Source: Corallococcus sp. AS-1-6 (GTDB lineage: Bacteria; Myxococcota; Myxococcia; Myxococcales; Myxococcaceae). Taken from it: 64,000 nt of DNA. The stretch spans positions 62,001 through 126,000 of the forward strand of contig NZ_JAIQDE010000026.1 of the NCBI RefSeq assembly GCF_020037015.1, written 5' to 3'. The stretch's first letter is position 1. Each line of letters opens with the position of its first letter. The notes under the pieces were generated by a model. The model ran no database searches, was not told where the DNA came from, and saw nothing but the letters and a program-made list of their open reading frames with translations. A program made the position numbers and the translations under genes. This document shows, in pieces, positions 28,243 to 31,437 of this stretch.

Positions 28243-28524
28243 GGCATTGCTCCCGCGCTGTGAAGGCGCCGCCACCCTAACCGCCTTCCGCCCTGCTGCC
28301 GAGCGTGCGCTGGGGTGCCACGCGCGGTGTGCATCCGGTGGTGGATGGATCCGCTCCGCCTGCATTCGTCGCCCCGAGGAAGCGGCGCTCTGTCCACCCC
28401 CGGACGCGAGCGGGAGGAGGCTGCCGGCCGGCGACGATCGGGCCTCGCCATGACGGTGGGGGCTGCACAGGTTCTGAAGTGGACCCCTCGGTGGGGCGGG
28501 TGGGGACGGGCGAGGAGGGCGAGT

Positions 28525-29601
28525 GTGAGCAACGTGCACCACGAAGGGGCCCTGGCCGGGCCGGGGGCCGTCGCGGGGGAGGGGCTTTGCGCCTCACCGT
28601 GCGCCTGGAGACGCAGGCTGCTGACGGTCCTCAAGCCGGTGTTCGCGATGGGCGGCCTGGGGATGTTGGGGGCCCTGGTGCACAAGGCAGGCGCGGGCGA
28701 GCTGAAGACCACGCTCCTGGAGGCGCTGCCGCTGCTCCCCTGGGTGGTGCTCATCGAACTGGGACGGCAGACGTGCGACGCCACGGCGACGCGACTGTCC
28801 TATGGCGCGCGCGCGGGGCAGGTGCCGTTGTCGGTGTTGGTACGCGCGCAGTTGATTGGAACCGCGGTGTCGAGCATGGCGCCCGCGGGTCGCGCGGCGG
28901 CGGAGGCGACGAAGGCCACGCTGCTGACGCCGTACACGGGGGGCGCGTCCGCGACGGCGGCGGCGGCCACGTCGCAGTCGGCGTCGCTGGGAGCCGGAGG
29001 GCTCATCTCCTTTCCGTGCGCGCTGGCGGCCTATCTGATGACGGGGTGGAGCGCGTTCACGGTGGCGATGCTGGTGCACGGCGTCGTGTTGCTGCTCGCG
29101 TCGCTGGGCGTGCGCGCGGGGCTGCGGGCGAAGCGGCTGGGCGCGTGGATGCGCAGGCGGTGCGGGAAGTGGGGCGAGCACGCGGAGGCGTTCCAGGCCT
29201 CGCTGTGCGCCGGAGGGCTGTGTCCGTGGCGGCCGATGATGGCGTTCCTGGGCAGCCGGGTGTTGCAGGTGATGCAGTACGCGGTGTTGGCGCACGCGGT
29301 GGGCATCGACGCGACGGTGGTGCAGGCGCTGTTCACGCAGGGGCTCTACCTGGTGGCGCTGGCGATGGGCTCGCTGGTGCCGGGGCAGGTGGGCGTGACG
29401 GACGGGATGTTCTCGCTGGCGGCGGGAGCGATGGGCACGACGGCCGCGAAGGCGATGTCCATCGCGCTGCTCGCGCACACGGTGCAGGCGGTGTTCGTGC
29501 TGGTGGGAGCGCTCACGCCGCTGGTGTGGCGAGCGAAGGCGAAGGTGACGGCCGCCGCGCCGGTGGTGCCGCCCGTGCTGCCCGCGCCGGTGTACCGCTA
29601 G
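28525..29601 (+). CDS. UPF0104/LPG-synthase-like TM protein (flippase-like)
   Basis: About 358 residues and largely hydrophobic, with about eight membrane helices. The start is uncertain: an ATG at 28450 is in frame, but a GTG at 28525 has GAGGAGGG (28512-28519) at good spacing and removes an odd W/R-rich extension, so I prefer it. Motifs include VVLIELGRQTCDA, RAQLIGTAVSSMAPAGRAA and GSLVPGQVGVTDGMFSLAAG. This is the membrane domain of lysylphosphatidylglycerol synthase-like (UPF0104) proteins, some of which act in lipid or glycolipid transfer. No MprF synthase domain is present. A membrane-lipid role is inferred. Confidence 0.72.
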   Translation: MSNVHHEGALAGPGAVAGEGLCASPCAWRRRLLTVLKPVFAMGGLGMLGALVHKAGAGELKTTLLEALPLLPWVVLIELGRQTCDATATRLSYGARAGQVPLSVLVRAQLIGTAVSSMAPAGRAAAEATKATLLTPYTGGASATAAAATSQSASLGAGGLISFPCALAAYLMTGWSAFTVAMLVHGVVLLLASLGVRAGLRAKRLGAWMRRRCGKWGEHAEAFQASLCAGGLCPWRPMMAFLGSRVLQVMQYAVLAHAVGIDATVVQALFTQGLYLVALAMGSLVPGQVGVTDGMFSLAAGAMGTTAAKAMSIALLAHTVQAVFVLVGALTPLVWRAKAKVTAAAPVVPPVLPAPVYR

Positions 29602-31030: not shown

Positions 31031-31437
31031 TGACAACCCTGCCGTGAACTGCCTGTCCATGATGCAAGCCTGGGTCCACCGCATCCATCAGTCGGGACCC
31101 AGGCCCTCGGACCTGGATTCTTCATGAGAAGGTGAGAACTCCCGCAGGGCCGCCCGGCGGCGGCGACCACCAGAAACCTGTCGGACAGTCGGACAAGTTC
31201 CGGAGGACCGCAGCCGGGCCACCACTCCAGCCGACCAGCGGAAACCTGTCGGACAGTCGGACAAGTTTTGGAGGTCCGGGTTCGGGGCCCTCCCCTGCCA
31301 AGCAGCGGAAAGCTGTCGGACAGTCGGACAGGTTTTGGAGGACCGGGACCGGGAGCCTCGGGTTCAACCAGTTGTCGGACTCTCAACCCGGTTGGGTCTG
31401 TGTCGGACCGGCGGTGTACACCCCGAGGGTAAGGGGC
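31031..31437. other. Intergenic region with three degenerate repeats
   Basis: About 400 bases with no convincing gene. Frames on either strand have no conserved motif and follow the repeat sequence. The main content is the repeat set given separately (31172-31345), plus a fourth, poorly matched copy of the core (GTTGTCGGACTC) near 31372. Confidence 0.7.
31172..31345 (+). repeat. Three 67-68 bp repeats with palindromic core
   Basis: Three copies of a 39-base element begin at about 31172, 31240 and 31307, spaced 67-68 bases apart. The core holds CTGTCGGACAGTCGGACA in all three. It is an imperfect 25-base palindrome, in which each half carries TGTCsGAC and only symmetric positions differ. The 28-29 base stretches between copies also resemble one another (each ends in a CCAGCGGAAA-like run), so this is a diverged tandem array. 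No cas gene is near. An operator array or mobile-element-related repeat is possible. Confidence 0.7.

Follow-up and report, generated by a model that had tools for sequence, protein, structure and literature searches.

The window analysed here, a 64,000-nucleotide stretch from the genome of Corallococcus sp. AS-1-6 (G000; 9.5 Mb, 82 contigs), contains at positions 31172-31345 a tandem array of palindromes which the initial annotation had read as a possible binding site of a dimeric regulator. The question raised by this locus is whether the array serves the genes beside it or has a wider meaning. The array is one member of a genus-wide family of small palindromic repeats in the predatory bacterium Corallococcus and not a local operator.

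The array and its neighbouring genes

Three direct copies of 67 nt make up the array, with start-to-start distances of 68 and 67; identity to the middle copy is 75% and 82% for the outer two. Tandem Repeats Finder placed the repeat at 31166-31353 (period 67) with a score of 243, the top of the 10 rows obtained for the window (next score, 83). The core TGTCGGACAGTCGGACA was found exactly at 31179, 31247 and 31314, and gave six matches in the window when up to three mismatches were allowed, one per strand for each copy; 100 shuffles averaged 0.37 matches and never reached six. The three repeats of 67-68 bp first noted are real. Their imperfect palindrome is present too, although it spans 27 rather than 25 bases (31174-31200, 31242-31268 and 31309-31335, all on the forward strand), with GTCsGAC in both halves of each unit as had been claimed. 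The 15-bp core of the first unit, GTCGGACAGTCGGAC, occupies 31180-31194. Window units belong to a sub-class with G in place of C at position S1, and the diverged spacer 1 (31201-31241) is related to spacer 2 (31269-31308). A weak fourth core, suspected near 31372, proved to be a decayed unit at 31373-31389 (forward strand), which starts with TGTCGGAC and then diverges, 59 bases after unit 3; its counterpart in the related genome G028 carries three mismatches and stands at the same 59-base distance from unit 3. A leader-like sequence, GAGAAGGTGAGAAC, lies at 31126-31139 (forward strand). With up to three mismatches, it was found about 50-65 bp from one edge in a minority of the scanned clusters (about nine, the window one included), and was absent from the remaining ones at this threshold.

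The array sits between the 3' ends of two converging genes, a homocysteine S-methyltransferase family gene (PF02574; 29777-31030, forward strand) and a molybdopterin oxidoreductase gene (PF00384, PF04879, PF01568; 31438-33603, reverse strand). The latter is interrupted, as initially described, its open reading frame being split by one in-frame stop. This single stop corresponds to residue 502, and the eight relatives compared carry no stop there. Between the methyltransferase gene and the array, at 31099-31116 on the forward strand, lies a stem of terminator type with a T-rich tail behind it.

Regular spacing of a palindromic site is the observation that favours an operator array, on which a dimeric regulator would act to control the neighbouring genes. 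Against this reading stand the 187 exact copies of the site genome-wide, the unrelated genes that flank the family, and the position of the window array at convergent 3' ends, where a promoter scan of the sigma-70-like type returned no site between 30900 and 31600. The array is also absent in 5 of the 10 relatives compared. A check of whether the core lies near particular genes, suggested by the initial annotation, revealed no pattern: 140 Pfam families were counted among 92 flanking proteins (of 94 listed), none in more than three, and no common function emerged. The local operator reading is extremely improbable and does not stand. What survives of the proposed dimeric-regulator site is that the core behaves like a sequence-specific site, 12 of its positions being unchanged at the orthologous copies compared, so that sequence-specific recognition of the core appears supported.

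Besides G000, the genus is represented by 15 genomes, and the window locus was compared in 10 of them. It holds three units and one three-mismatch unit in G028, and 12, 8, 5 and 4 copies in G018, G029, G020 and G016, respectively. No array was found at the locus in G017, G019, G021, G022 and G025, in which an LPG-synthase-like gene (28315-29601 in the window) directly adjoins the oxidoreductase. The methyltransferase gene was aligned beside the array in G028, G018, G029 and G020; it was not aligned at the locus in G016, which has the array only, nor in the five genomes that have neither.

A dispersed family of palindromes in Corallococcus

The 187 exact copies found in the window genome are those of GTCnGACnGTCnGAC, the core of the 27-bp palindrome AAACCTGTCCGACAGTCGGACAGGTTT, which is the consensus of 237 aligned copies and displays an odd centre A and ends AAAC...GTTT. 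The S1 pair is C/G in 165 of these copies, G/G in 56 and C/C in 9. A strict 12-position motif, GTCNGACNGTCNGAC, likewise counted 187 in G000 and was present in every one of the 16 Corallococcus genomes (7 to 262 copies), while a reversed-pattern control gave 0 to 2 per genome; the lowest count, 7 in G021, compares with 2 for the control. Counts are high in G018, G029, G000, G022, G016 and G028 and low in G021, G023-G026 and G030. With up to two mismatches, the core matched 161 times forward and 141 times reverse in the window genome and the reversed pattern 0 and 1 times, the former sum overstating copies since perfect palindromes match on both strands; 187 is the figure used here. In the order as a whole, 48 of 145 genomes contained the strict motif. 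Outside the genus, single genomes had 44, 19, 16, 12 and 12 copies and the others 0 to 5, most other genera having 0 to 2. Among the 80 loci listed with the exact palindrome TGTCCGACAGTCGGACA in a scan of named genomes, at least 70 were from Corallococcus. The genome with 44 sites (G007) belongs to a sister genus, and at many of its listed sites the sequence is GTCTGACwGTCAGAC, the S positions being changed symmetrically. Two palindrome copies 45 bp apart were also seen in a 65-kb IMG/VR contig classed as viral (L309, 3497-3558), with further similar repeats adjoining. A phage or plasmid origin was considered and dropped, the phage and plasmid collections both giving no match at an E value of 0.01.

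A repetitive sequence of Myxococcus xanthus was reportedly described by Fujitani et al. in 1991. For the present family, four motif strings were not found in a literature text search, searches for myxobacterial or Corallococcus repeats returned no paper on it as judged by titles and abstract starts, and PMC12306157 does not mention Corallococcus, Myxococc or Stigmatella.

Copies occur singly or as arrays with a preferred period of about 70 bp: neighbouring spacings were 69-72 bp in 95 of 236 cases (G000 and G028), others including 39, 51, 60, 92 and about 139 bp. The stretches examined, chosen by exact 17-mer matches, contained 214 copies in 62 clusters, and 185 copies with an intact 12-position core against 187 genome-wide. 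Of these clusters, some of which are parts of one array split into two or three, 45 had a called gene on either side, a further 13 lay at the edge of a stretch and 4 overlapped open reading frames, one of the latter (L069) being a two-mismatch match that may be due to chance. Intergenic clusters lay between same-direction (21), convergent (15) and divergent (9) gene pairs, these counts being approximate as genes were called by a home-made codon-bias script.

Arrays are gained, lost and amplified between species. Two single copies of G000 correspond to arrays at the same site in G028 (L043, seven copies; L065, four copies), and empty sites were found for L041 (in G025 and G029), L063 (in G029), L059 (in G028 and G016) and L066 (in G029). 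The segments missing at empty sites measured by eye from about 27 to about 170 bp, with no consistent target duplication; miniature elements of the MITE type are bounded by terminal inverted repeats and a target-site duplication. Inversion of whole segments, which mixed strand signs within arrays had suggested, was discarded once the L053 units had been inspected by eye: their flanks hold one direction and the centre base changes. A CRISPR-like array, with identical repeats and unique spacers, was likewise discarded, since the spacers of an array here are similar to each other and single units exist as well. Several contig starts (C25, C27, C29, C44, C46) and ends (C16, C19, C25) of the window genome lie within a few hundred bases of arrays; the draft assembly may therefore break there, and array sizes at these places may be lower bounds.

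Core conservation and symmetry of the palindrome

When copies were compared with their orthologs by position, conservation of the core was striking. In 24 ortholog pairs (13 own copies), found via flanking genes rather than fetched by motif, the 12 GTC/GAC positions showed no change (0 of 288), while flank identity of the same pairs was 79.6% (about 20% diverged). A set of 85 ortholog pairs at 54 sites gave identities of 92.4% in the core and 78.1% in the flanks. Own copies had been selected for an unbroken core, and several pairs from one site do not count as independent. Over the 85 pairs there were nine changes in total at the 12 core positions, 16 at S1 and 25 at the centre, 22 of the latter from A to T; single arm positions had as many as 18. 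Since S1 was changed in 16 and the centre in 25 of the 85 pairs, the bases rather than the pairing seem to be kept, and we take this retention of base identity as the probable mark of a site read as duplex DNA.

Twelve single-copy sites were further surveyed in up to six genomes (63 loci), yielding 39 intact cores, one core with one change, 18 loci without the element and three unreadable ones; six of the 39 intact loci (G028) were fetched by motif, and without them 33 of 57 were intact. One locus with two and one with three mismatches completed the survey, both being regions of about 1-1.6 kb, where chance gives two to three mismatches. Decay was visible in G000: among its 216 array units 48 had 1-3 of the 12 positions changed, as did four of its 21 single copies.

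Molecular drive through transformation could keep cores intact without host benefit if the palindrome were a DNA uptake sequence, and short genus-specific dialects, inverted pairs between genes and a modest intergenic excess of the half-site GTCGGAC (33 vs 21.1 expected) agree with this. Half-sites outside elements are nevertheless near expectation overall (GTCCGAC 142 vs 129.8; GTCGGAC 124 vs 113.3), which is not the strong excess of single short words (GTCSGAC) looked for in an uptake system, and about one site per 50 kb is sparse, as known uptake sequences are denser. An uptake role is very improbable.

The halves of the palindrome do not compensate for each other within G000, in which pair 8 had 159 Watson-Crick pairs against 158.8 expected and shuffle fractions ranged from 0.3 to 1.0 at pairs 8-13. 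Pooling all distinct copies across several genomes shows covariation of pairs 8 and 9 (0 of 500 shuffles); in mixed-species copies, whose loci were chosen by exact 17-mer, it extends to pairs 8-11. The arms change symmetrically between lineages, from CCTG/CAGG in G000 to CTGG/CCAG in G016 and G022 and CTTG/CAAG in the three G006 copies examined, and listed sites of G007 have GTCTGAC/GTCAGAC. Symmetry is real at the subfamily level. The symmetric arm changes and the covariation could result from the replacement of whole copies, which mimics constraint, or from an importance of pairing. A hairpin of RNA or DNA as the conserved object was set aside on the lack of compensation between halves in G000, but the covariation at subfamily level points the other way.

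Two perfect copies, L041 and L063, fold strongly (-18.4 and -22.4 kcal/mol, z -5.8) and end in GGTTT, as a bidirectional transcription terminator or a 3'-end RNA hairpin might. Intergenic clusters are also over-represented in convergent gaps (15 of 45): in the background 164 of all 836 gaps are convergent, and 66 of the 544 that measure at least 30 bp. However, the window units break the stem with G opposite G, a class of 56 in 237 copies; their folding is weak, at -6.7 to -9.8 kcal/mol (z between -0.6 and -2.1), and a terminator scan called the stem at 31099-31116 and none of the window units. The uncompensated halves within G000, the 9 of 45 intergenic clusters located between divergent genes and the copies inside genes argue in the same direction, as does an orientation that follows replication and shows no association with gene direction (see below). 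Terminator function is accordingly held to be improbable for this family. At the gathering score, Rfam gave 0 matches in the window, L036, L055 and L067.

Replication polarity and relation to known systems

The palindrome is otherwise symmetric, and its orientation is defined by the centre base. In the three single-contig genomes, the strand carrying the centre A switches at dnaA, the best DnaA match being at 2.03 Mb in G028, 0.4 kb in G018 and 0.3 kb in G029. With the terminus assumed opposite dnaA, and sites taken by a 24-base pattern in G018 and a 17-base pattern in G028 and G029, 105 of the 133 clusters without a tie had the A on the leading strand. When clusters were counted once and ties dropped, the split was 24/9 right vs 6/15 left in G018 (p 0.002), 18/5 vs 3/17 in G029 (p 5e-5) and 15/3 vs 2/16 in G028 (p 3e-5), these tests not being independent as the three genomes have many sites in common. 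Polarity is a feature of the origin-proximal half, in which the A was leading rather than opposite in a ratio of 81:7, against 24:21 in the distal half (by quarter from the origin, 43:3, 38:4, 15:13 and 9:8). A core found in hundreds of copies with no gene pattern had been announced in the initial annotation as the sign of a generic repeat family. The 187 copies largely agree with that description, but their orientation follows replication.

No association was found between centre orientation and the direction of flanking genes (G000, 19 clusters, p 1.0; G028, 18 clusters, p 0.62). The GACAGTC words outside elements (23 in all) displayed no such bias, and other intergenic odd palindromes did not share it, leaning the opposite way (p 0.077). 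The centre was flipped in 22 of 85 ortholog pairs; flips being this common, polarity is not just a birthmark. A hairpin flip with a strand bias may be the mutational cause.

Small palindromic repeats are commonly viewed as selfish DNA or RNA hairpins, and a rival reading of the family is a purely selfish mobile palindrome of the REP or small dispersed repeat kind, devoid of host function. Cores would then be intact because copies are young or repeatedly replaced by fresh ones at the same sites, and polarity would come from a single-stranded intermediate inserted into the lagging-strand template, or from a strand-biased flip of the centre. Presence and absence between species, a hugely variable copy number, the lineage-specific symmetric arms at the same sites (G016 and G022 vs the window genome), the lack of compensation within G000, replication polarity itself and the changed-core copies of G000 are all in line with such an element. 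On the other side, flanks, S1, centre and parts of the arms have changed at the very orthologous copies whose 12 core positions have not, decayed copies are few at the surveyed sites, a search restricted to Y1/RAYT transposases was positive in 0 of 16 genomes, and target duplication was not consistent by eye. We regard a purely selfish origin as rather unlikely.

The reading preferred here, to which we give about an even chance (roughly 0.5), is that of REP-like palindromic repeats whose core is read as DNA by a putative protein engaged in chromosome replication or maintenance. A single 27-bp palindrome, at times with more flanking DNA, would appear at a mostly intergenic site and could then multiply there into an array with a period of roughly 70 bp. 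Its 15-bp core, GTCnGACwGTCnGAC, would be read as duplex DNA by a sequence-specific protein, candidate recognition involving two GTCnGAC half-sites 8 bp apart. As the polarity tracks the fork and gene direction showed no association with it, this putative protein would act on the chromosome while it replicates or segregates, and not on promoters nearby. The protein, the mechanism of mobility and the function are what we infer from these patterns. A copy number ranging from 7 to 262 in one genus, with 0 to 2 in most other genera, is odd for an essential chromosome function. A bolder and unlikely version, offered tentatively, is that a replication-polarised address code evolved in Corallococcus, with GTCnGACwGTCnGAC sites and arrays read by the putative protein, their centre base telling the direction with respect to the fork, chiefly in the half of the chromosome nearer the origin, and the sites spreading and multiplying as REP-like repeats even inside biosynthetic genes. 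If a protein does read the core, the family would be a chromosome motif specific to this lineage and observed in the course of its spread, which could be tested in 16 related genomes.

Orientation or position follows the replication map in KOPS, Chi and origin-region parS sites. The Corallococcus sites resemble them in following this map, only in the origin-proximal half, and differ in forming arrays, in carrying polarity in the centre base, in being most strongly polarised near the origin and in being lineage-specific. Elhai et al. are said to have described in 2008 small dispersed repeats of cyanobacteria that are very small and come and go between relatives; the Corallococcus family has another sequence and belongs to another lineage, and we know of no replication polarity for the cyanobacterial repeats. 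Small dispersed repeats are also named in PMC3116915.

With REP, BIME and REPIN elements, as presented in PMC3733652 and PMC3116915, the family shares short palindromes in high copy, mostly intergenic and also at convergent gene ends, found as singles and ordered tandem clusters and sometimes inside genes. REPs are defined in PMC3733652 by a GTAG or CGTC tag at one end, whereas the Corallococcus consensus (AAAC...GTTT) has no such tag, and the abstract of that paper describes CGTC REPs as likewise devoid of a dedicated transposase. A search for RAYT (Y1 transposase, PF01797) came up empty across the genus (0 of 16 genomes), with the control found in 5 of 14 genomes, and a RAYT-driven REP was rejected on this basis. 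Replication polarity and the strong conservation of 12 core positions further set the Corallococcus family apart from REPs and REPINs.

In-frame copies in coding genes are a small minority of all copies. An eight-unit array (L067) lies in frame in a PKS-like open reading frame of 2400 aa, between the ketosynthase and KR regions; its spacings are all multiples of three, as are those of four copies at the orthologous place in G028 (position-based). Single copies L068 and L072 encode KPVGQSDRF and KPVRLSDRF inside NRPS adenylation domains, with no net length change by eye relative to other adenylation domains. Palindromic repeats lying in frame inside unrelated protein genes are also a trait of Rickettsia palindromic elements, which, as presented in PMC10969869, measure about 150 bp against the 27 bp of the Corallococcus element; the latter is mostly intergenic and expands into in-frame arrays in NRPS and PKS genes. 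The in-frame NRPS and PKS arrays display such repeat DNA turning into protein linkers. In C. interemptor (L150, NZ_RAWM01000037.1), an NRPS adenylation domain similar to those of L068 and L072 holds seven in-frame units derived from the palindrome, spaced by 19-20 residues and located a little ahead of the YTSGSTG motif, within a reading frame that is open across the whole 8-kb stretch.
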